Shown here: piece by piece, positions 3,464 to 16,977 of the stretch
Position numbering within the stretch: position 1 is the first letter of the stretch
How the letters are laid out: each line of letters begins with the position of its first letter
DNA from: Pseudomonadota bacterium
GTDB lineage: Bacteria; Myxococcota_A; Bradymonadia; Bradymonadales; GCA-2716585
Direction: 5' to 3'
DNA: 64,000 nt
NCBI GenBank assembly: GCA_005804885.1
Contig: SYOX01000083.1
Coordinates: 30,457-94,456 of the forward strand
Made by a program: the position numbers and the translations under genes
The notes under the pieces: model-generated
What the model saw: the letters and a program-made list of their open reading frames with translations, nothing else
Told to the model about the DNA's origin: nothing
The model's database searches: none

Positions 3464-3641
3464 GGGCTTCTCCGCGTCCAAGGGGCCGCCAGACGGGCGT
3501 CAAGGCGGGCACAGTAGCACAGGCTGCGCGGGCTGATTGCGCGGATCGCGCATGTTGTGGCAGGGTTCGGGGGGAGTCAGCTCAAGCCGAGAGCGTCGGA
3601 TGGGAGAAGCCGGGACAGGGGCCTATGGGCCGGGGGAGTCG

Positions 3642-5753
3642 ATGCTGGATCAGCTCGCGCGGGTGCGCTTGTGGCTGGCGAGGCACCAGATCCTGTATGC
3701 GGAGCGGGAGCTGCATCCGGACCCGAGATCGCGGCACATGTTCGTCAGCGACGCCGAGTTCAGGGACACGCTCAGGGCCGAGGGGCCGGATCACGCGGCG
3801 CTGGAGGCGATAGAGCGTGAGCTGGAGGCGCTGGCGGGGCGCATCGAGGCGCGGGTCGAGGAGACGCTGATCGAGGGCGGCTCGGCGCCGCTGGAGGAGC
3901 TCCGGGCGGCCTTCCGGCTCAGCGACGTGGAGGTGGACGTGATCGTGGCGCTGGCGGCGCCGGAGATCGAGCAGCGGCTGGCCAGGGCCTACACCAACGC
4001 GTGGAGCGACTTTACGCTCAAGCAGGTCGAGGTGGCCTTCCTGATGGAGCTGCTGGGGCCGACGTGGGCGCGGCAGCAGGAGCTGCGCGAGGCGCTCTCG
4101 CTGGGGAGCCGGCTGGACGAGTACCTGCTGATCCACAGCTTCGGGAGCGACAAGTGGGCGCCGGACACGCCGCTGCTCTATCGGCGGCTGAAGCTCTCGG
4201 ACAGGCTCGTGGACTTCCTGTTGACGGGCCGGGGGGAGCGCCTGGATCGGGGTCTGGGGCGCTCGGCGAGGTTGGTGGCGGCGGGGCCGGGGGCGCTCGA
4301 CGGGCTCTTGATGCCGGAGGAGATCAAGCGCGGGCTGGTGCGGGTGTTGAGCAACAGCGCGCGGGAGCGGGGCGCGCGGGTGGCGCTGATCAGCCCGCCG
4401 GGTTGCGGGCGCAAGTCGCTGGCGGCGGCGCTGGCGGGGATGCCGGGGCGGCGCCTGCTGGTGCTCGACGCGCGCAGGCTGCCGCAGTCGGCGGCGGAGC
4501 TGGAGGTGGTGCTGCGGACCGCGCTTCGGGACGCGCACCTGGCGCGCGCGGACCTCTACCTGGATGTGCCGCCGTCGTTCTGCGACGACAGGCTGGCGCC
4601 GGAGGCCCGGCAGGCGCTCATCGACCTGCTGGGGTGGATGCCGGGGACGGTCTACATCGGCGCGGAGGTGGAGCCGGAGTGGCTCACGATGGTGTCCGGC
4701 GTGATCGTCTTCCGGCTGCCCTTCCCGACCGTCGAGGTGCAGGAGGCGCTCTGGCGGCGGCAGCTGGCCGGCCACGCGACGCTGGATCGGGACATCCCGC
4801 TGGAGGTGCTGGTGTCGGCCTACTCGCTCAGCGGCGGCGCCATCGAGATCGCCGCGCGCGAGGCGATCCACCAGTCGAGGGTGACGGGGGCGGGGCGCCA
4901 GGTGGTGATCTCGCGCTCGACGGTGACGGCCTGCGCGCAGGAGCAGCTCTCGCACCGGCTGGGCTTGCTGGCCGAGAAGGTCACGCAGATGTTGACCTGG
5001 AACGAGCTGGTGCTGCCGGACAAGACGATGAACGTGCTCAAGGATCTGGTGGCGCAGTACCGCAACCAGAACCGGGTCTTCAACGAGTGGGGCTTCAACA
5101 CCAAGGTGGCCTACGGTCGGGGGCTCACGGCGCTCTTTCACGGGCCGCCGGGCACGGGCAAGACGATGGTGGCCGGGATCATCGCGCGGGAGCTGGGCCT
5201 GGAGCTGTACAAGATCGACTTGAGCCGGGTGGTCGACAAGTACATCGGGGAGACGGAGAAGAACCTGGGGCGGATCTTCGACGAGGCCACCCGCTCGCGG
5301 GCCATCCTGCTCTTCGACGAGGCCGACAGCCTCTTCAGCAAGCGCACCCAGGTCAAGTCCAGCCACGATCGCTACGCCAACCTGGAGACGAACTACCTCC
5401 TGCAGCGCCTGGAGAGCTACGAGGGGGTGGCGCTCTTGACGACGAACTTCGAGGCCTCTCTGGACGAGGCCTTCAAGCGCCGGCTGCGCTTCAAGATCGC
5501 CTTCCCCTTCCCGGACGCCAAGGAGCGCGGCGCGCTCTGGGAGGCGATGATGCCAGGGCAGGCCTATGTGGAGGGGCCGCTGGACTTTGGGGGGCTCGGC
5601 GAGCATTTCGAGATGACCGGCGGGCACATCAAGAACGCGATGCTGCGAGGGGCCTTCTCGGCCGCGCAGCAAGGCAGCCCCATCACCGCCAGCATCCTCT
5701 ACGAGGCCGCCACGGAAGAGTACCGCGAGATGGGCAAGCTGGTCCGGTCCTGA
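3642..5753 (+). CDS. Large AAA+ ATPase, Afp15/PVC15-like, two AAA modules
   Basis: From the ATG at 3642 the product is 703 residues; an in-frame ATG at 3600 is an alternative. An N-terminal helical region contains LGSRLDEYLLIHSFGSDKW, a pattern shared with ATPases of extracellular contractile injection systems. A first, degenerate AAA module follows (LISPPGCGRKSLAAAL, with no intact GKT). A canonical C-terminal AAA+ domain has Walker A FHGPPGTGKTMVAG, the pore-side run YKIDLSRVVDKYIGETEKNL, Walker B ILLFDEADSLF, and sensor/Arg-finger LLTTNFEASLDEAFKRRLRF. No sheath, tube or baseplate genes lie nearby, so it is an orphan here. The next gene, 45 bp downstream on the same strand, is a YbjN-like protein and may be its partner. 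Confidence 0.8.
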   Translation: MLDQLARVRLWLARHQILYAERELHPDPRSRHMFVSDAEFRDTLRAEGPDHAALEAIERELEALAGRIEARVEETLIEGGSAPLEELRAAFRLSDVEVDVIVALAAPEIEQRLARAYTNAWSDFTLKQVEVAFLMELLGPTWARQQELREALSLGSRLDEYLLIHSFGSDKWAPDTPLLYRRLKLSDRLVDFLLTGRGERLDRGLGRSARLVAAGPGALDGLLMPEEIKRGLVRVLSNSARERGARVALISPPGCGRKSLAAALAGMPGRRLLVLDARRLPQSAAELEVVLRTALRDAHLARADLYLDVPPSFCDDRLAPEARQALIDLLGWMPGTVYIGAEVEPEWLTMVSGVIVFRLPFPTVEVQEALWRRQLAGHATLDRDIPLEVLVSAYSLSGGAIEIAAREAIHQSRVTGAGRQVVISRSTVTACAQEQLSHRLGLLAEKVTQMLTWNELVLPDKTMNVLKDLVAQYRNQNRVFNEWGFNTKVAYGRGLTALFHGPPGTGKTMVAGIIARELGLELYKIDLSRVVDKYIGETEKNLGRIFDEATRSRAILLFDEADSLFSKRTQVKSSHDRYANLETNYLLQRLESYEGVALLTTNFEASLDEAFKRRLRFKIAFPFPDAKERGALWEAMMPGQAYVEGPLDFGGLGEHFEMTGGHIKNAMLRGAFSAAQQGSPITASILYEAATEEYREMGKLVRS

Positions 5754-5798
5754 CGTTCCGCCTGAGATCCAACCACTGACACCAAGATGGAGCCTTAA

Positions 5799-6503
5799 GT
5801 GACAAAACAGAACGGACACCACAAGTCTCTGACGGAGCGCTTCACGGAGCTGCTGACCGCCGAGGGGATCGACTACGCCACCAGCGAGGAGGGCGACGCG
5901 CTCTTGATCCACGGCGAGACGGAGGCCGGTTCTTGCGAGGGCTACATCGTCATCGAGGAGCTGGAGGCGGTGGATCTGGACAACTCCGGCACGATGTCGG
6001 TGCGGCTGGACTTCTGCGAGGTGGCCTACGTGGTGCCGGTCGGGGAGATCGAGGATGAGGATCTGCCCGGGCTCCTTGAGCTGCTCGTCCGGCTCAACGA
6101 GAGCCACCGGATCGGGGCCTATGAGTTCAACATCGAGGAGCGGGAGCTGCGCTTCCGGATCTACCTGACCTTGCCCTCGGGTCAGGCCATCGCCCGCGAG
6201 CACCTGCTGCTGCCGCTCTACGAGGGGATCTCGGCGATCAACACGCACCACGAGGCCTTCCGCATGGTGCTTGAGGAGGGCTGCGATCCCGCCCACGCCA
6301 CCGCCGAGATCTTCGCGCTGGAGGCGCTGGAGGACGGCGATCTCAACGAGGAGCTGCTGGAGCGGGCCAACGCGCTCTACGATCTGGCCAGGGCGCGCTA
6401 CGCGGCCCGCGGCGAGGATGAGCTGCTGGCGGATCTGGAGGCGAGGTTGATGCGGCTGGCCCACCAGGCCGGCGAGGCGATGACGCGGTCGCTGCGCTCG
6501 TGA
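5799..6503 (+). CDS. YbjN/secretion-chaperone-like acidic protein
   Basis: A 234-residue acidic protein starts at a GTG (5799). The stretch DNSGTMSVRLDFCEVAYVVP, LLELLVRLNESHRIGAYEFN, and then LRFRIYLTLPSGQAIAREHLLL resembles the alpha/beta fold of YbjN and type III secretion chaperone-like proteins. A helical, charged C-terminal tail contains LEDGDLNEELLERANALYDLA. There is no signal peptide or membrane segment. It sits directly downstream of the AAA+ ATPase on the same strand, and an operon is likely. By analogy with the fold, it may bind the ATPase or a client protein. That role is inference. No catalytic motif was seen. Confidence 0.6.
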   Translation: MTKQNGHHKSLTERFTELLTAEGIDYATSEEGDALLIHGETEAGSCEGYIVIEELEAVDLDNSGTMSVRLDFCEVAYVVPVGEIEDEDLPGLLELLVRLNESHRIGAYEFNIEERELRFRIYLTLPSGQAIAREHLLLPLYEGISAINTHHEAFRMVLEEGCDPAHATAEIFALEALEDGDLNEELLERANALYDLARARYAARGEDELLADLEARLMRLAHQAGEAMTRSLRS

Positions 6504-8349: not shown

Positions 8350-8754
8350 TCAGACCAGGGTCGGGCTCATGGAGAGGCGGACGTTGAGGACGCCCTCGAA
8401 GTCCGTGGAGACGAACTGGGCCTTGATGTAGTTGATGCCTCGCAGCGAGAGTTCAAAAACCTCCTCGACGTCGGTGTCGGAGGCGGCGTCGAAGACGAAC
8501 GTGAGGGCTGCAGCGCCGATGGGCGGGAAGTTCATCTTGTCGATGGACTGCAAGAGGGAAAAGGTGAATTTATTGTTGCCAGAGCCCGAGAAGGGCTTGT
8601 TGTCGGTGACGATGCGCAGCCTGAAGATGGCCTCGTTGATCGGGCGCACATCGAGGGCATCCTGATTGCGCGGCGTCCAGGACTGGGGAGCCAGGAGAGT
8701 TCCGGCGGGATGGCCCAGTGTGATCTGTTGATAGGGCAGCACGACGATGGCCAT
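8350..8754 (-). CDS. Small paralogous protein A of the AT-rich block
   Basis: This 134-residue protein begins MAIVVLPYQQITLGHPAGT. The ATG at 8754 lies 6 bases after GGAGG, and the ORF-track start at a TTG six bases upstream is less likely. It shares with the two upstream genes the opening pattern [IV]xxxPYQxITLGxxGG followed by PxSW, and a C-terminal half of alternating hydrophobic strands. It has no signal peptide, transmembrane segment or catalytic motif. A beta-sandwich fold is plausible from the strand pattern. It is the last and most divergent of three tandem paralogues and lies upstream of gltX on the same strand. I do not recognise the family. Confidence 0.75.
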   Translation of the reverse strand: MAIVVLPYQQITLGHPAGTLLAPQSWTPRNQDALDVRPINEAIFRLRIVTDNKPFSGSGNNKFTFSLLQSIDKMNFPPIGAAALTFVFDAASDTDVEEVFELSLRGINYIKAQFVSTDFEGVLNVRLSMSPTLV

Positions 8755-8778
8755 GGTCAACCTCCGAGGGTGGCTTGG

Positions 8779-9174
8779 TCAGTTGTTCTTCTTCAAGGTC
8801 ATGACGGCCTTGAAAGCGATGGTGCCTTGAAAGTCGACTGATGTCAGTGTCACACGCAGAAATCGTGCGAAGTCTGATGCCGAGGCGAGGATGTCCTGAG
8901 TGAACACACCCCCTCCGGTGACGTTGACGGTCTGGGTGTCAAGCGGGGGAAAGTACTGCTTGTCGTTGGAATGCTGCAGATCGATGGTGAAGGACAGGCT
9001 GCCTGCGGGGGGGGAGAGGGTTTCGACGAAGTACTGGATGGAGACCAAGGTGTGGCCCAGGGCATCGTAGGCCTTCTCGGCGGGGGGGGTCCAGGACGAG
9101 GGGGCCGTCCGGGTGCCCCCGAGGTGGCCGAGGGTGATCAACTGGTAGGGCACGATCTCAACGATGGTGGTCAT
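8779..9174 (-). CDS. Small paralogous protein B of the AT-rich block
   Basis: This 131-residue protein, MTTIVEIVPYQLITLGHLGGT, has a strong Shine-Dalgarno (GAGGAGCCC) before the ATG. Compared with protein C it aligns through the whole length. Both have the PYQxITLG opening, a TxxSW/NTW turn, a Gly-rich turn before a strand (VTGGGVFT against ITAGGGTIN), and FARFLR against FARYLR followed by a strand ending in basic residues. No known domain was recognised. The 18-25 bp gaps to its neighbours indicate one transcript. The fold is probably all-beta. A structural or carbohydrate-binding role near the beta-helix proteins is speculation. Confidence 0.75.
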   Translation of the reverse strand: MTTIVEIVPYQLITLGHLGGTRTAPSSWTPPAEKAYDALGHTLVSIQYFVETLSPPAGSLSFTIDLQHSNDKQYFPPLDTQTVNVTGGGVFTQDILASASDFARFLRVTLTSVDFQGTIAFKAVMTLKKNN

Positions 9175-9239
9175 GGGCTCCTCAGGCGTTGGGGCCTGGT
9201 CGCGGGGCGACGCCAGGCACGTTGATGCTCACCGTTTGC

Positions 9240-9887
9240 TCACCGTTTGCTCAGCTTGAGCAAGACTCTGAGAGCGAAGGTCTCAGGATCCGAGTTGAAG
9301 GAAACGAGTCGAGGTCGAAGGTAGCGGGCGAACTCGGCGATGTAGCGGGGGGTCTGGACGTTGATGGTTCCGCCGCCCGCAGTGATCGGCGTTTGAACCT
9401 TTGAGGAGGGGATCTCCTCGAAGACGAGGTTGTCCTCCGCGTGATCGACGGCAAACAACAGCCCACCGGGGTGGCTGCCCGTGGTCGGGACAAGCGCCTG
9501 GATGCTGACCTGGAGGATCCCGAAGTTGTAGCCTTCGGCGTCCACCGACTCCTCCCTGGGTCTGGCCCAGGTGTTGGGCGTCAAGCTCCCGCCGCTCCCT
9601 CCCAGTGTGATGGTCTGGTAGGGGATCAGTTCGATTTCCATGTCATCACCTTTTTGACGGCTCTTATAGGTCATGTTCTCAGATCCCTCAAGAGCCGAGT
9701 CCACATTGGGAGAGAGCGCTGCATGCGCGGTCTCTCCATTCGCCTCACTGTCGAGTTTTCGAGCCAGCCTCTCGATCAAGATCTCTCGCATCAGCCCGAA
9801 GCTGAATGAATTTTTCCGATCAGACCCCAAAAGTCTTGTCAAGAGGGCATCCACGGCACCCATCGCCTCGTTCCGGCTGTCTTGCAT
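9240..9887 (-). CDS. Small paralogous protein C with N-terminal extension
   Basis: The C-terminal 133 residues (MEIELIPYQTITLGGSGGS onward) are a third copy of the small paralogue family. Upstream in the same frame is an extra region of about 82 residues with the helical run REILIERLARKLDSEANG. The ATG at 9887 has GGAGGG at good spacing and gives 215 residues. The ORF-track start is a GTG at 9908. An internal ATG at 9641 also has AAGGTG just upstream and would give a protein the size of A and B. Both starts may be used, or the extension may be a targeting or assembly segment. The gene follows the long beta-helix gene closely on the same strand. Function is unknown. Confidence 0.7.
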   Translation of the reverse strand: MQDSRNEAMGAVDALLTRLLGSDRKNSFSFGLMREILIERLARKLDSEANGETAHAALSPNVDSALEGSENMTYKSRQKGDDMEIELIPYQTITLGGSGGSLTPNTWARPREESVDAEGYNFGILQVSIQALVPTTGSHPGGLLFAVDHAEDNLVFEEIPSSKVQTPITAGGGTINVQTPRYIAEFARYLRPRLVSFNSDPETFALRVLLKLSKR

Positions 9888-9909
9888 GTCGGCGCCCTCC
9901 GGCTTCACC

Positions 9910-12900
9910 TTATCCTTGAGTTCGGTTCAGCATCCCCCAGATACTTGCAATTTGTTGGTTTCTTTCACCAACGTCAAGACTAGTAGTAGTTCCTATAACC
10001 TCAAAATTGATACTCAGCCAACGCTCAAACGTCCGCTCAAAAGATCTCAACCACATATCGCCCCTCACGCCAGAGTCAAAGCCAAATCTCAACCCTGCGA
10101 GGTTTAGATTGTTGTCGATTCCAAAAGCTTCTCTGCCAATAAATTCGTCCGGCAATCTTTCGGCGAGAATATTTCGACATCCAATAAACACGACCTGATT
10201 CGGATCTGATGGTTTTATCCCCCCGGTTCCGATAGCGGAATAAACAATCTCCGGATACAAGTCCTCCGATACGTTATTTTGGTTTGTTGGCTCTTGCCCA
10301 AACATGAACAACCGAGACTGCCTCACATGACTGGCGGGCGTTGCACTATGGCGAAAAACGTTAAAATGTAAATACTCGCGACTGTTGATCGTCAATCCAT
10401 CCAATGACGCATTAAAAAATATCCCCAAGCTGTTAGCACTGTTAAGGGATAGGGCCAGCTTAGAGTTAAAAGTTGACTCGCTAACAAAAATCTCCCCCCC
10501 CGTCACATGCAAGCCCTGATCAAAATCTTCGTGAATGTGGCATCCCGTCACAACCAACCGATTTGACTTGCTCGAACTCATTCCATAAATCGCCACAAAT
10601 TTGCTGAGTTGCTGTCTGTTGATTCTTCGAAGACCCTCATCCAAAGGCACCCCGTCAGGGCGAAAGCAGCAATTGACAAACTCAAGATGCTGAACATTTT
10701 CTGGGTCATTAGGAATCAAGAGATTGTATAAACCTCGAGCGTTCCGCCTTGTCTGAATTTCGACAGGGTTGTTTCCATCAGTGACAATGTTGAGATCGTC
10801 AATGACAACATTCGGATCCTCGACGATCGAGAAAGAGCAGTTTTGAAATGTGACGTTGTAAGGATTGATGATCCGACCGAACTCGCCTGCATTATGAAGT
10901 CCTGTAGCAATCCCGCTGTTCATCACTCGAACCGTCGAACCGCTGGCGCTGAGGTTGAAGGGTGGCGCATCGGATTGAACATTGTTGAGATACGCGGCGG
11001 CACCTTGTTTGAGGCCAATGTCCAAATCACCGTCCCTTAAGTGAATGTTTTCGCCCAGGAAACGTGAGGGCACGGCCCCATCCAGCTCGATGTCGATCCC
11101 ACTGCTCAGGAAGACATCCCCTCGTGCGATGTTTCGACCCTCAGTGGTCAAATTCTGGACCATGGCGTCCGTGGTCGCAGAGCCAGTCAAGGTCAAGCCC
11201 CCACGGAAGCAGTTGACTGTCTGGCAATCGGAGATCTGAGCCAGAGCATTACCCGCCACTGAAAAGCCATCGCCGCCACTGTTGTGAATAAAGCACCCTT
11301 GAAGGTTGATCAGCGCCTTACCCCGTTGCGCACCCATAAAGACCCCACTCATAAACTCCATCTGAAACTTCTCGAAACCCCTTCGATCACCATCATCGAT
11401 TAGAGATGAAAGATTCATATCAAAGTTAAATCCAAAGATGGAGAACAGACTAGAAGTTTTTAAAGGTTGATCATATGTCTGCGTTGTAAAACATCTGCCC
11501 AGATTAAACTGTCCATTATGGGTCAGCCTTGGACCCACCCGATTTTCATAATCTTCAAGGGCCACCGCTTCATTGATCACGGCCTCATTGAGGCAAGAAA
11601 TTATCCTGTTATTGCGATCATCGACGCTGACCAGACCATTAAGATCACATTCGATCCGTAATCGATTCGGGCCAATCATCTGTCCCGAAAGGTCTGGTTT
11701 TAGAGAGAGCTTCATCGAAGCTTCAATCACCGACTGCAAACTAATCAAATCCAACCTGATATCACTTTCTGGAAGAACCTGGATGAAGTCGCCTAATCCC
11801 CCAGCCACGCCTCTCACATTTCCTATGTCTAGGGGAGCGGGCGGGACATTAAAGCTTCTTAATCTTGCTGAAAGCTCGTTAAATACCGGAGTCGAATCCG
11901 CCTGGTGCCAATTGGATTGAGGGTCCAACTCGCCAGGGTCCAATTCGCCACGATGAAAATCAAATTTGGATCTTATCTCATTTGCGAACTCAGAGAGGCG
12001 CGCCAGATCTGTTTCATTATCATCGAGGTTTGCAGTAATTACCTGATCGCTGATATCGCCCTTGTGAAGGTCTTGAGCCGAAATGTGGCCGTTAAAGTCA
12101 TTTTTAAGAGCTATAAGAAGTGTGCGGACGGCTTCCGCTGTATCAAGAGGAATCTCTAAAGCATTGCCTGGGATGCTCTGGTGTGTTGTGTCCTTGGCTA
12201 TAGCTGAATCATTCCTTCTAAATTGAAAAGATCCACCATGAAGGGCAAGGCCAATCGACCCGCCAAACCGCCGCTGAACCACCTGGCTGTTGCGGTGTAA
12301 GTGGAGCACTACCCGAAGCTCGTTGGCAAGCCGCGCTATGCTCCCCAAGTCCGCCGTAGCCTCCAGCTCTGGAAGAACCTCCGAGGACGCCTGGCGGATC
12401 ACGGCCCCCAAACCGTCGTAGGTCAGACCCTCTTTTAGGTGAACCTCCGTGACCGTAAAGGTTCCCCGGAACTTGATCGTCTGCCCCAGCCGACCGCCGC
12501 GCTCTAAACGGGCGGCATCAGCGGCATTGACACAAGCCTGGATCGATAACGTCGTCGGTGTGATGCGCTCAAACTGCCACACGGTGTTAGGTGGAGTACC
12601 ACCGACCCTGTTCATCGTGACCATGGTGGACTCGGCCACACCACTCGCGGCACCCCACCATTGCGGGTAAAGAACCCCGTTCTTCAAAGGAGCTCGAACT
12701 TGCCGGGTGTCTCCCCTCACCCCACGCCACTCCTCTCCCCCAAAGATTCGGTAAGGCCCGGCCTGAACGTAGCCATGGATGACCGTCTCATAGCCATCGC
12801 CAATCGGTAAAAGTTGAGCGCCTGGATCGAAGACCAGCGTGATGTTCTCGTGAAACGTGACTGCGCTCTCAATTCGATATGTACCAGGAGAGAAGTAGAT

Positions 12901-13041
12901 GGTGCCTCCTCCAGCATCTTGCACGCTATCTGACAATGCCTTCAAACCAATGAAGTCGTTATGAGAACCATTGCCAAGGACAGGCTCATCAGGCACCAAA
13001 CGACTGTTCTTGGCGAAGTACCACTGGCCTTCAAGAGACAT
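9910..13041 (-). CDS. Long right-handed beta-helix protein (pectate-lyase/tailspike-like fold)
   Basis: This protein has about 1043 residues. The N-terminal module has AGGGTIYFSPGTYRIES, ITLVFDPGAQL, VIHGYVQAGPYRIF and VLYPQWWGAASG, the opening of phage tailspikes and pectate-lyase-like helices. Many short strand/turn repeats follow in the middle (for example LINLQGCFIHNSGGDGFSVAG). The C-terminal region contains GVRGDMWLRSFERTFERWLS, comparable to GDIWR in the frameshifted paralogue. I saw no signal peptide, lyase active-site residues or autotransporter domain. Base composition is much lower in GC than the flanks. The GTG at 13047 overlaps the upstream stop; the ATG at 13041 is preferred. 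It probably binds or cleaves a polysaccharide, or is a surface fibre. This is inference. Confidence 0.7.
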   Translation of the reverse strand: MSLEGQWYFAKNSRLVPDEPVLGNGSHNDFIGLKALSDSVQDAGGGTIYFSPGTYRIESAVTFHENITLVFDPGAQLLPIGDGYETVIHGYVQAGPYRIFGGEEWRGVRGDTRQVRAPLKNGVLYPQWWGAASGVAESTMVTMNRVGGTPPNTVWQFERITPTTLSIQACVNAADAARLERGGRLGQTIKFRGTFTVTEVHLKEGLTYDGLGAVIRQASSEVLPELEATADLGSIARLANELRVVLHLHRNSQVVQRRFGGSIGLALHGGSFQFRRNDSAIAKDTTHQSIPGNALEIPLDTAEAVRTLLIALKNDFNGHISAQDLHKGDISDQVITANLDDNETDLARLSEFANEIRSKFDFHRGELDPGELDPQSNWHQADSTPVFNELSARLRSFNVPPAPLDIGNVRGVAGGLGDFIQVLPESDIRLDLISLQSVIEASMKLSLKPDLSGQMIGPNRLRIECDLNGLVSVDDRNNRIISCLNEAVINEAVALEDYENRVGPRLTHNGQFNLGRCFTTQTYDQPLKTSSLFSIFGFNFDMNLSSLIDDGDRRGFEKFQMEFMSGVFMGAQRGKALINLQGCFIHNSGGDGFSVAGNALAQISDCQTVNCFRGGLTLTGSATTDAMVQNLTTEGRNIARGDVFLSSGIDIELDGAVPSRFLGENIHLRDGDLDIGLKQGAAAYLNNVQSDAPPFNLSASGSTVRVMNSGIATGLHNAGEFGRIINPYNVTFQNCSFSIVEDPNVVIDDLNIVTDGNNPVEIQTRRNARGLYNLLIPNDPENVQHLEFVNCCFRPDGVPLDEGLRRINRQQLSKFVAIYGMSSSKSNRLVVTGCHIHEDFDQGLHVTGGEIFVSESTFNSKLALSLNSANSLGIFFNASLDGLTINSREYLHFNVFRHSATPASHVRQSRLFMFGQEPTNQNNVSEDLYPEIVYSAIGTGGIKPSDPNQVVFIGCRNILAERLPDEFIGREAFGIDNNLNLAGLRFGFDSGVRGDMWLRSFERTFERWLSINFEVIGTTTSLDVGERNQQIASIWGMLNRTQG

Positions 13042-13043
13042 GA

Positions 13044-14999
13044 TCACATAGCCTCATATGGTAAAAAGTAGATTTTCTCGTCTCTCGGGCGATCGTCGTC
13101 AGAGCCGGCGCATAAGTAGAACAGGCCGTGGTCTGGATTAAAACCTATGCATCCGCCAAGATTTCTAGCCTCATCCGTCAAAACAATATCTGCACTATCC
13201 ACCCGATATATCGATGGGGCTACAGGTCCGAAAAACACGTAAGTCCTGATCTTGTCGCCCTCAAATCTGCCCGTAAGAAACAAATCGCCAAATCCGTCCC
13301 TATTAATGTCTTTAGAGGCTAAATTGTATCCCACTTTCTCTCTCTCTATACCCCATCCGATGAAAGAAATATTTATGTCCTCGGAGTATGTTAGCTGTGC
13401 AGGAGGTCCAATAATTAGGTATGTGCGACCGCGATCATACCCACTGGGCGATGTCAGCATTAAATCGTCGAAACCGTCGTTATTTTGATCCTCAACGACT
13501 ATTGCCCTATTACCAAGAGCGGATCCAATGTTGCTACCTGCGACAACAGCATTGGCGCCGTCCAAACGATACCTGCCTTCCAATGGACCATAAAAGAGAT
13601 AGGCTCCGCCCTGCACCAAAATATTTGTGGGTCGGCTTCCTTCAGCCCCAATCAAGATATCCGCGATCCCATCGCCATTGACGTCCCCTGAGTTGATGGG
13701 AGCACTCCCAGCGTTAGTGGCGGAGTCAAACTCAAACATGGCATCGGCTTGAAGAAGCTCCGTTCGCTCTCGGAGCGGATTCAGCCACAGAGAAATACGA
13801 CCCCTTAAAGTTGACGTAAAGACAAAATCATCGGCTCCATCATCATTAATATCTCCTAATGAGTTGATGCCTGATCCGCTTATTAATGAGTTAGGAAGAT
13901 AATCAATACGCCAATCAGGCTCGTTAACCCTTAAACAATCGAGGAGGCCTTCATGATAATGATCGCAATAAACCCCTTCTTGCACAGGGCCGAAGTAGAT
14001 GCTATATCCAAGATAGTGATCGCTCGAAGCAACAATTACATCGTCGTATTGATCGCCATTAATATCTCCGAGCCCAACTTTAGCCGTTCTTTGAGCAAAA
14101 TACACCTGGGCTTCACCAGCAAGGCTAATCTCTCGATCTCGGGGAAAAGGCCCGTACATCAAGAACGCACTTGAGGGGATGTCATTCTCCACCAGGATGT
14201 CAAAAAATCCATCGTTGTTAACATCACCTGTCGCCAAAAACGAAGTGGTAGAATAAAGATCGATGTCCCTGAAGGTGTGTACCGCATAGTCCTGTACCTG
14301 TCTCGTTCGAGAGGCCACGCAAGCGGGCTCACCCGCACAGATGACCGTTTCGGTGTCCGTGCAGATATAATGATTACAGCCCCGACAAGACGAGCCTGGC
14401 TCGTGGGCCAGCTCCGCGCAGCCTCCACAGGCATTGATGCGCTCATCTTCACAGCGCAGCGCGTTGTTCCCGTCGCACTGCAAGGTCCCATTCGAACAAA
14501 GACCACAAGGGCTGCCTGGTTCTTGCTCCAGTTGGGACTGACCACCGCAAGCATTCAAGACCACACGGGCATCAGGCTCCACGTCAGCGAGATCAACGGC
14601 GGCATCTGTCTGGGCGTCTGGAACCCCTGGCTCTTCGTCGCTGGAGTCCAAGGCATCTGCCACCATGCTGTCGAGAACCTCAGCGTCCATGTCGCCCGAG
14701 TCAAAGACCTCCATTCCAAGGTCTGGCCCAACGTCCAGCACCTCCGTTTCTCCATCGCCTGGGTCAACCACGACATCCACCAGAGCGTCTGGGCTCTCAA
14801 CATCTCCATCGTCGGGATCGTCCGCATCGCGTGGCGTGTTCGATACATCCGGCTCCACCGCACCCGAATCCAACGAACGCTCTCCTTGGCTCGTTGGCGG
14901 ATCCGAACACCCCGCAGTAGACCAGCCAATCAAAAGCAAGCTCAGGGCCATCCGCCAAAGCGCAAATCCGACTCGTTGACTCTGAAGAAACCTTTTCAT
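13044..14999 (-). CDS. FG-GAP (VCBS/integrin-like) beta-propeller lipoprotein
   Basis: This 651-residue exported protein has an N-terminal signal with lipobox STAGC and then an Asp/Pro-rich acidic linker of about 110 residues. Two Cys-rich units follow (ACGGCAELAHEPGSSCRGC and a preceding copy). At least six calcium-loop blade motifs come next: GDVNNDGFFD, GDINGDQYDD, GDINDDGADD, GDVNGDGIAD, EDQNNDGFDD and KDINRDGFGD, as in integrin-alpha-like FG-GAP propellers. It is expected to be a surface or periplasmic lipoprotein with a calcium-stabilised seven-bladed propeller. It lies between two beta-helix genes in one minus-strand transcript, which suggests a shared extracellular role. The acidic linker resembles those of myxobacterial lipoproteins, so the donor may be a relative. 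Confidence 0.85.
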   Translation of the reverse strand: MKRFLQSQRVGFALWRMALSLLLIGWSTAGCSDPPTSQGERSLDSGAVEPDVSNTPRDADDPDDGDVESPDALVDVVVDPGDGETEVLDVGPDLGMEVFDSGDMDAEVLDSMVADALDSSDEEPGVPDAQTDAAVDLADVEPDARVVLNACGGQSQLEQEPGSPCGLCSNGTLQCDGNNALRCEDERINACGGCAELAHEPGSSCRGCNHYICTDTETVICAGEPACVASRTRQVQDYAVHTFRDIDLYSTTSFLATGDVNNDGFFDILVENDIPSSAFLMYGPFPRDREISLAGEAQVYFAQRTAKVGLGDINGDQYDDVIVASSDHYLGYSIYFGPVQEGVYCDHYHEGLLDCLRVNEPDWRIDYLPNSLISGSGINSLGDINDDGADDFVFTSTLRGRISLWLNPLRERTELLQADAMFEFDSATNAGSAPINSGDVNGDGIADILIGAEGSRPTNILVQGGAYLFYGPLEGRYRLDGANAVVAGSNIGSALGNRAIVVEDQNNDGFDDLMLTSPSGYDRGRTYLIIGPPAQLTYSEDINISFIGWGIEREKVGYNLASKDINRDGFGDLFLTGRFEGDKIRTYVFFGPVAPSIYRVDSADIVLTDEARNLGGCIGFNPDHGLFYLCAGSDDDRPRDEKIYFLPYEAM

Positions 15000-16260
15000 C
15001 GACGGCTATTCCTGGTGGATCCTGGATAAAGCGGCCCACTGTGTTGAGTTTGATGTGCTGGTTCCTGATTGGACACACACCCACTCGTAGTCCTGACCAA
15101 CTCGCGGCGTTGTCAACCTCCAGATATCGCCCTTCAGACCTGCATCTGATGCCCGGGGTTCAGACGTTCCGTAAATCAAGCGCTGTCCAAGCGAATTGAT
15201 CAATCCTATGGGTGGGCCATGAATGATGTTTTCTTCATTGGTGAGCGTTGTCGAAAGATGTGTGATCTTGATTCGTCTTGAATCACTGAGGAAAGACAGA
15301 TAAGCAACACCTTCGTCGTCGGCCAACCTGGACAACTTCACATGGCCAATTCTAAGCAATGCTTCCGCCGTTGGATGAGCTAAAACTTCAATTCCAACTC
15401 TGGACTCCAGCAAGATTCCGTGGATCGTCGCCCTCAATCCGCACTTATAAAAAAGAATTCCCTTGTGAAGACCACTTCCAAATCTACAGTCCTTGATTGA
15501 GAGTTCGCTCTGGCTAGAACTTGTGCCGACCGAAACTATACCAATAAAGGTGTCTGTCAGCTGAATATTGTCAGAATTGTCCGACATTAAAAATTGACAA
15601 CTCGCAAGAGATATATACCCTTTGGCGTCTTCGGATTCAGGCCAAGCGAGCGTGAGCGCTGTCACAGCCTTGCTTCGCGAACCCGCGCCACGATGAATTA
15701 TGAAATCACAATTAGCGAGCGAGTAAAAATTTGACCCCGTGATTAGCGCTGATTTGTGAATATTGAATTCACAATTAGAGAACTTTGCCCTTCCTTCATC
15801 TCCTTTTAAGGTGAGCCCGTTGGACAATGTATTGGTAAACAACAGAGATGCCTGGTTGAATTGTGCTTCAATAGAACCAAACATTGAATTGCTGATAAAA
15901 GCCGTGCCGAATTGATCCTCTCCCTCCGGGACCAGTGAAAGCGACTCCAAGCGCAGTGTACCATCACACACAAAATTAGAAACTTGAAGGGACGTACCGT
16001 CAAGCATCCCATGAATCGAAGTGGCAACACCAAAAGCACGGCTGTTGATGACTTGTAACCGGAGCCCAGCGAGCGCCGTCAAGCCGACAAGGGAAGAATT
16101 CATAAAAGAGCAGTTGGACACCAGAACGTGGACTGGAAGATCTCCGGGCTCCAGAGTCAGTAAGCTCGTAGACTCAACATCATCAGAATCAATGTTGCCA
16201 AGATCGTCTTGATCGCCAAATGTGAATCCATAAATGGTGGTCAAGAGAGATAAGTCGACA

Positions 16261-16268
16261 GTGTGTGT
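16261..16268 (-). repeat. (AC)4 dinucleotide tract at the frameshift
   Basis: On the coding strand the sequence reads CGCGACACACACTGTCG. One additional AC unit restores the open frame across the split beta-helix gene, so this tract is the simplest site for the lesion. Slipped-strand loss of a unit would produce exactly this state. Confidence 0.6.
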
Positions 16269-16713
16269 CGCGATACGTGATGGCGAGAGATCCGTAAATC
16301 TCCGTGCCTTCTCCAAGATAGGTCTTCCCAAAAGGAAGTCTGACTGTTCTGCTGAACACATACTGACCAGAGATGAACCGAATGATTCCTGGGCCGCGCG
16401 GGAGGCTCTTGAGCATGAAGCTCATCCCACTGCTGTTCCCATCCGCAAGTGATTGAATGTTGTCGTTGACGCCAGAAAGTACCGATACACCCCACCACTG
16501 AGGGAAAATCTCGCTCCTGTGATTCCCGAGGCGAAATTTCCCACTTCCAGATGTTTGAAAGATTTGGTGAGGACCCGCCTGAATGTGGCCATGAATCACA
16601 ACAATGGCATTGCTGGCAACAAGAGTGGCTGCTTGATCAAAAATAATCTGAACGCTTTCGGGTATGTCGATGGAGGCTGTCAGAATGTGAGTGCCGTTCG
16701 AGAGAAAGACTGA

Positions 16714-16724
16714 CCCCCCCCCCC
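16714..16724 (-). repeat. Homopolymer of 11 G on the coding strand (C11 on plus)
   Basis: Eleven consecutive C on the plus strand give AGG GGG GGG GGG in the frame of the beta-helix gene (RGGG). It sits about 30 codons after the start. Gain or loss of one base would truncate the product early. It is the longest homopolymer I noticed in the window. Confidence 0.9.
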
Positions 16725-16812
16725 TTTGCAAAATTCCGCCAATAACCCTCCGAAGAGATATCTCACTCTCGCCACCAGAGGGTATAATGTTCCAGAATTC
16801 TGCCATAGGTAT

Positions 16813-16841: not shown

Positions 16842-16977
16842 AAAACCCCGATTCCCTTGTTGCGGTGCTTTAACCATAAGCGGCTGGCCCGTACCGGCTT
16901 TATCCCCATCTTCTCTCAGCATAGGCAAGCCCATCTCGACTGTCAAGCCTTGAAATCGAGCGCTTACCCACACGTCA

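Follow-up and report, generated by a model that had tools for sequence, protein, structure and literature searches.

Tandem jelly-roll genes distantly resembling phage cement proteins, co-encoded with tailspike-like beta-helix proteins in an apparently mobile bacterial cassette

The six-gene run and its tandem triad

The window, that is, the whole stretch of 64,000 nucleotides analysed here, carries three adjacent genes (s1, s2 and s3; Table 1) that close a run of six closely spaced genes on the same strand (16806 to 8350), in the order beta-helix A, lipoprotein, beta-helix B, s1, s2 and s3. A preliminary description had claimed three tandem paralogues, and the minus-strand reading frames lie where it placed them, with pairwise alignment scores of z = 29, 23 and 13, each higher than all 1,000 shuffles made per pair. 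Once the first 32 residues are removed, little likeness remains between genes 1 and 3 (z = 2.4), while gene 2, with bodies only compared, resembles both gene 1 (z = 14.3) and gene 3 (z = 7.4). Since all pair scores exceed the shuffles and gene 2 links the other two, the paralogy of the trio is real and the earlier description nearly right. The likeness of gene 3 to gene 1 lies mostly in the opening. The common opening PYQxITLGxxGG was described correctly for genes 1 and 2, whereas gene 3 reads PAG instead of GG after ITLGH; the FARxLR-type motif is likewise present in genes 1 and 2 only, gene 3 reading INYIK. The PYQxITLG insertion is private to the window trio, and sister loci read PKT or similar, without about 8-13 of those residues.

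Candidate starts of s1 are a GTG at 9908 and the ATG at 9887, the latter with GGAGGG on its 5' side, and those of s3 are the ATG at 8754, with a good Shine-Dalgarno sequence, and a TTG at 8760. The N-terminal part of beta-helix B matches the tail spike family phrog_2234 (E = 7e-8), and its match to Pfam PF12708 (3.8e-5) is below the curated cut-off. The split of beta-helix A into two frames is either a real frameshift or an assembly error. Promoter-like matches such as the one in Table 1 number nine in the region, with 6.6 expected. The GC content of the cassette equals 0.52, compared with 0.70 in the flanks. Elsewhere in the window, long reading frames that are antisense to or overlap likelier genes (1194-2690 on the plus strand, 3582-6464 on the minus strand, and similar ones) appear to be composition shadows of a genome with 67% GC.

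Table 1. Coordinates of the triad and of the accompanying features in the window
Feature	Position	Strand	Remarks
Triad gene 1 (s1)	9240..9887	-	215 aa; helical N-terminal extension (residues 1-82) and jelly-roll core
s1 jelly-roll core, possible shorter product from internal ATG 9641	9240..9641	-	
Triad gene 2 (s2)	8779..9174	-	131 aa; jelly-roll protein
Triad gene 3 (s3)	8350..8754	-	134 aa; most diverged of the trio
Beta-helix B	9910..13041	-	1043 aa; N-terminus tailspike-like; has YPQWWGA motif; beta-helix B homologues in C419 and C205 (E down to 2e-13)
Lipoprotein with FG-GAP beta-propeller repeats	13044..14999	-	
Beta-helix A	15006..16806	-	two overlapping frames, 16189-16806 and 15006-16361
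Promoter-like TTGACA-17-TATGCT	16918..16946	-	consensus match only; ahead of the six-gene run

Family members, sister cassettes and start sites

The window genes have no match in Pfam at E ≤ 1, and the earlier statement that no family could be recognised holds for both Pfam and NCBIfam. Searches with growing profiles of the genome that holds the window (G000; 9.9 Mb, 428 contigs) gave five family loci, namely the window, three further contigs with three tandem members each (C419, C205 and C333) and one with two (C53). In a second genome from this family (G002, CAKZKQ01) there is a triad on contig C119 and a single gene on C354. Beyond these two genomes there was no other match among the first 143 relative genomes searched, and one scan of GTDB contigs brought up the family-mate genome alone. 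Searches of phage and plasmid records by tblastn with the family members gave no useful match, IMG/VR scans with two family queries found none, and the family profile gave a single match, at chance level, in the PDB sequences.

All four triads outside the window keep the gene order s1-s2-s3. The profile of the window trio matches 15 non-window members with 94.5% probability over 113 columns, which makes the PYQxITLG trio a diverged branch within a larger family that has no Pfam entry. In the tree, the genes of the other four triads group by position (s2 100/98, s3 93/92, and s1 weakly, 49/68), while the window trio forms a separate clade (100/99), in which the branch of gene 3 is very long. 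It follows that either the triad arose twice or the window copy was homogenised.

The partner genes recur together with the triads. C20, C419 and C205 all conserve the six components, and G002 does so in part; C419 and C205 show a permuted order (s1-s2-s3, beta-helix A, a lipoprotein with an RCC1 propeller, beta-helix B). Beta-helices A and B are homologous across the loci, and a search with beta-helix A gave matches limited to these cassettes and G002 C119. Cassette GC is lower than that of the flanks in five of six comparisons, the exception being C333, where the contig holds the triad only. The propeller type varies at the equivalent site, with FG-GAP repeats in the window and RCC1 at L021:4985-6634 and L023:5348-6919. 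A second type of cassette (C53 and G002 C354; L005:9582-11926 and L025:1435-3105) consists of one or more jelly rolls, a signal-less protein of 259-271 aa and then a small Cys-rich lipoprotein. The jelly-roll and beta-helix genes have no evident Sec signal, judged from a hydropathy reading only, so that a surface location of a complex of these proteins is no more than putative.

In all five triad loci an N-terminal extension, 54 to 237 residues long, precedes the jelly roll of s1 in frame. The model of the helix-rich segment described earlier for the window copy shows, with moderate confidence, a pair of helices (residues 2-20 and 28-49) plus a disordered linker. An upstream s1 ATG with a Shine-Dalgarno sequence (-6.9 to -11.7 kcal/mol) is present in 5/5 loci. 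The four sister loci also have an internal ATG with a Shine-Dalgarno sequence of -7.2 to -8.8, among the best 4-10% of 645 internal ATGs, and for all five loci the comparison with these 645 gives a Mann-Whitney p of 0.002. The internal ATG of the window, at 9641, exists as had been noted, but it is not a particularly good start, its Shine-Dalgarno sequence (-4.3) being ordinary and 34% of internal ATGs equally good. Since the upstream start is found in all five loci and a good internal one in four, the suggestion of two products from gene 1 is plausible for the family, although it is less so, and uncertain, for the window copy itself. A Cys-x-Cys pair is present in the s1 extension in four of the five loci (CGC 23-25 residues before the internal Met in three, CRC at 38 in the fourth); the window extension, unlike those of the four sister loci, has none.

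Predicted fold, phage cement proteins and distant relatives

The AlphaFold2 model of gene 2, built with five aligned relatives, consists of strands and short helical turns only (pLDDT 87.9, pTM 0.81), and this all-beta prediction matches jelly-roll structures. The top solved structure in Foldseek is the carbohydrate-binding module (CBM) of Cel9A (4d3l, TM 0.60-0.63), with CBM22 and CBM4 scoring too; further matches include fibre subunits of the Ena endospore appendages (query TM 0.42-0.45), the cement protein of phage KHP40, virus capsid jelly rolls, XepA of PBSX and, with target TM up to 0.75, small phage proteins that are uncharacterised. Since the jelly roll is a very widespread fold, similarity of fold by itself says little.

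At the level of sequence, three sister s1 genes match phrog_5707 (E = 2e-7, 1e-5 and 1.8e-5), window gene 2 matches phage families weakly (E = 0.006 and 0.0095, the latter being phrog_5707), and window genes 1 and 3 have no match among the phage families. A prophage fragment in a related genome (L101:341-3029) holds, in this order, genes for a capsid protein, a cement-like phrog_5707 protein and another head-region-like protein. The phrog_5707 gene (L101:1712-2128, E = 9.5e-18) is directly 3' of a PF05065 major capsid gene, and it matches Bbp16 in Pfam (E = 3.5e-4) and the cementing protein 3j4u in the PDB (E = 3e-4). When the family was aligned by hhalign with a Bbp16-type profile of ten aligned rows, including epsilon15 gp8 and the gene L101:1712-2128, the probability was 67%, and 30% for the window trio alone. 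Phage decoration proteins, named in the preliminary description as an example of a known family to which a strong match would refute it, are thus the best lead, but the match is a remote and not a strong one. These values are suggestive of remote homology to Bbp16-type cement proteins, and not of membership.

With tailspike-like and cement-like genes in one low-GC segment and a split beta-helix A, the cassette could be taken for a decaying remnant of prophage tail and head genes, which we regard as highly improbable. Genes for capsid, portal, terminase, tail or integrase were not seen beside the cassette, and the same component set recurs in several unlinked loci, where most frames are intact, a lipoprotein gene is included and the start sites are conserved. 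The cassette is not a plain prophage remnant.

Distant matches were found in 11 other genomes of the 379 in the phylum. A profile of 13 distant genes matches the family with 99.1% probability (E = 2e-18), or 98.7% without the window trio, and alone it finds the non-window members in G000 with E values up to 2e-13. Most of these relatives end just a few bases 5' of the gene for a large hydrolase-like protein. A Cys-x-Cys pair occurs in the first 70 residues of 12 of the 13 partners, compared with 3 of 99 other genes (Fisher p = 1e-12), a count that describes the pattern and is no independent test, because the partners were chosen as family neighbours and the motif was noticed on the same loci before counting. 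In eleven of the 13 partners an HExxH motif is present, in the form HE(L/I/M/F)(G/A)H, and the remaining two have a beta-lactamase fold. Large Pfam-less proteins with Cys-x-Cys-rich N-termini and HExxH are seen directly downstream of jelly-roll relatives at L064:6120-7883, L068:6744-8513, L070:8786-10726, L078:881-3361 and other loci, and are possibly an unnamed metalloprotease family. The beta-lactamase-fold partners (PF00144) are L073:7619-9799 and L079:2830-5553, likewise downstream of the relatives, and the L079 partner also has a polyglycine hydrolase-like repeat (BTRD1). In several distant loci the N-termini read suggest small lipoprotein-like genes further downstream.

The partners also bear on the nature of the jelly rolls. 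They might be CBMs on separate chains that target the co-encoded beta-helix proteins, as putative polysaccharide lyases or hydrolases, to glycans; the predicted structure has its best solved match in a CBM, the beta-helix partners resemble pectate lyase and tailspike proteins, and the cassettes are polymorphic and low in GC. As a rule, a CBM that is secreted carries a signal peptide or is part of the enzyme's own chain; neither applies to the triad proteins. Moreover, the relatives adjoin protease-like and beta-lactamase-fold proteins and not just beta-helices, and the sequence links lead to phage cement proteins rather than to CBM families, so we consider this explanation rather unlikely.

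Quite improbable, in our opinion, is that the cassette supplies cargo or a spike for an extracellular contractile injection system (eCIS) encoded elsewhere in the same genome. Sheath, tube and baseplate genes are present in both G000 and G002, and the partners are tailspike- or hydrolase-like proteins without Sec signals. Sheath genes occur in 8 of 9 genomes with strong matches and in 159 of 370 others (p = 0.012, kinship ignored); when all 13 positive genomes are counted, the difference becomes 9/13 against 158/366 (p = 0.087). Sheath genes are, however, common across these families, and the eCIS genes are on other contigs (C403 in G000, C142 in G002) than the cassettes. These eCIS loci, L095 in G000 and L096/L113 in G002, contain two sheaths, tubes, and gp25-like and baseplate-like genes. 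A link to T6SS was rejected: of ten genomes, G137 alone has a strong VipB match, and the one in G002 covers a short fragment. At 3537-5753 and 5799-6503 the window carries an AAA ATPase with a winged-helix domain variant (PF22977), beside a YbjN-like gene. This ATPase has 42% identity over 259 aa to an ATPase near the sheath locus of G130 (L099:18270-19046), and it would be speculative to see in it the missing eCIS ATPase.

Proposed role and comparison with known systems

The family is not an already named one, and it is best placed with a known structural kind, the phage-cement-like jelly roll, in a previously undescribed cassette. To hypothesize, the jelly rolls, co-encoded with two tailspike-like beta-helices and a beta-propeller lipoprotein as an apparently mobile cassette, act as structural adaptors for their partners, and to this explanation we would give about an even chance. 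Like phage cement proteins, the jelly rolls would form oligomers by way of their edge strands, and as an adaptor they would assemble, cap or dock the large partners, with which they would be physically associated. The N-terminal extension of s1, with its Cys-x-Cys pair in the sister loci, may be a tether, and s1 would probably exist both as a long form with the tether and as a short one without it. The lipoprotein could be the membrane-anchored member that holds the set at the cell surface, and the beta-helix proteins may be the part that binds or cleaves a glycan. In favour of this explanation are the predicted fold, the remote phage-cement similarity, the recurring co-location with large partner genes, the grouping of s1, s2 and s3 by position in four loci and the start sites; against it count the weak phage matches of the window genes, the commonness of jelly rolls together with a CBM as the top solved match, the lack of evident Sec signals and the missing Cys pair of the window copy.

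More tentatively, and with a clearly lower probability, the cassettes may represent an undescribed mobile class in which phage-cement-like jelly rolls form an assembly or docking base for exchangeable effector-like partners, i.e., tailspike-like beta-helices in one lineage and, in others, Cys-x-Cys-tagged proteins of the HExxH protease-like or beta-lactamase-fold kind, with lipoproteins as further members, and in which the three-subunit base arose separately, or was homogenised, in the window copy. If the adaptor role is true, bacteria would reuse phage head-cement jelly rolls outside prophages, as a building block for several kinds of partners. The analysis also defines a family without a Pfam entry whose gene neighbourhood can be recognised in the large genomes of environmental bacteria, so that a set of otherwise unannotated hydrolase-like and beta-helix proteins can be predicted as complexes.

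With phage tailspikes (phrog_2234) and the pectate-lyase superfamily the cassette shares the N-terminal match of beta-helix B; unlike in phages, this protein is encoded in a cellular gene run without tail genes, and its gene is separated from that of beta-helix A by a lipoprotein gene.

Three clustered jelly-roll genes are also known from Bacillus, namely ena1A, ena1B and ena1C of the endospore appendages (Ena). The triad could accordingly be read as a surface fibre of jelly-roll subunits with cysteine-bearing N-terminal connectors, since Ena2A and Ena1B are near the top of the matches to solved structures (E = 2e-4 to 5e-4), and the jelly-roll subunits, the clustering of three paralogues and the cysteine-bearing extension in four of five loci are features shared with Ena1A/1B/1C (7a02, 9i0y). 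However, the TM-scores are low (0.42-0.50). Ena fibres are cross-linked by disulfides from the connector to a cysteine in the jelly-roll body (PMC12921279). Such acceptor cysteines are missing from nearly all of the family, as 16 of 18 members, including all three of the window, have no body cysteine. In addition, there is no DUF3992 match, either for the window genes at E ≤ 1 or for 15 members, and the genomic partners are other ones, so that a fibre of the Ena kind seems very unlikely to us.

A third comparison is with the Bbp16 / phrog_5707 cement proteins (PF21190, 3j4u). Bbp16 is an eight-stranded jellyroll that dimerises on the capsid by strand augmentation (PMC3863775). No major capsid gene is found among the neighbours of the triad, in the window or in the sister loci, and the family differs from these cement proteins in being chromosomal, multi-copy and tandemly triplicated, in the lack of a Pfam match for the window genes, and in having beta-helix or hydrolase-like proteins as partners. 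What they share is the length, the predicted all-beta jelly-roll fold, an R-F/Y-x-R motif near the C-terminal strands and remote profile similarity.
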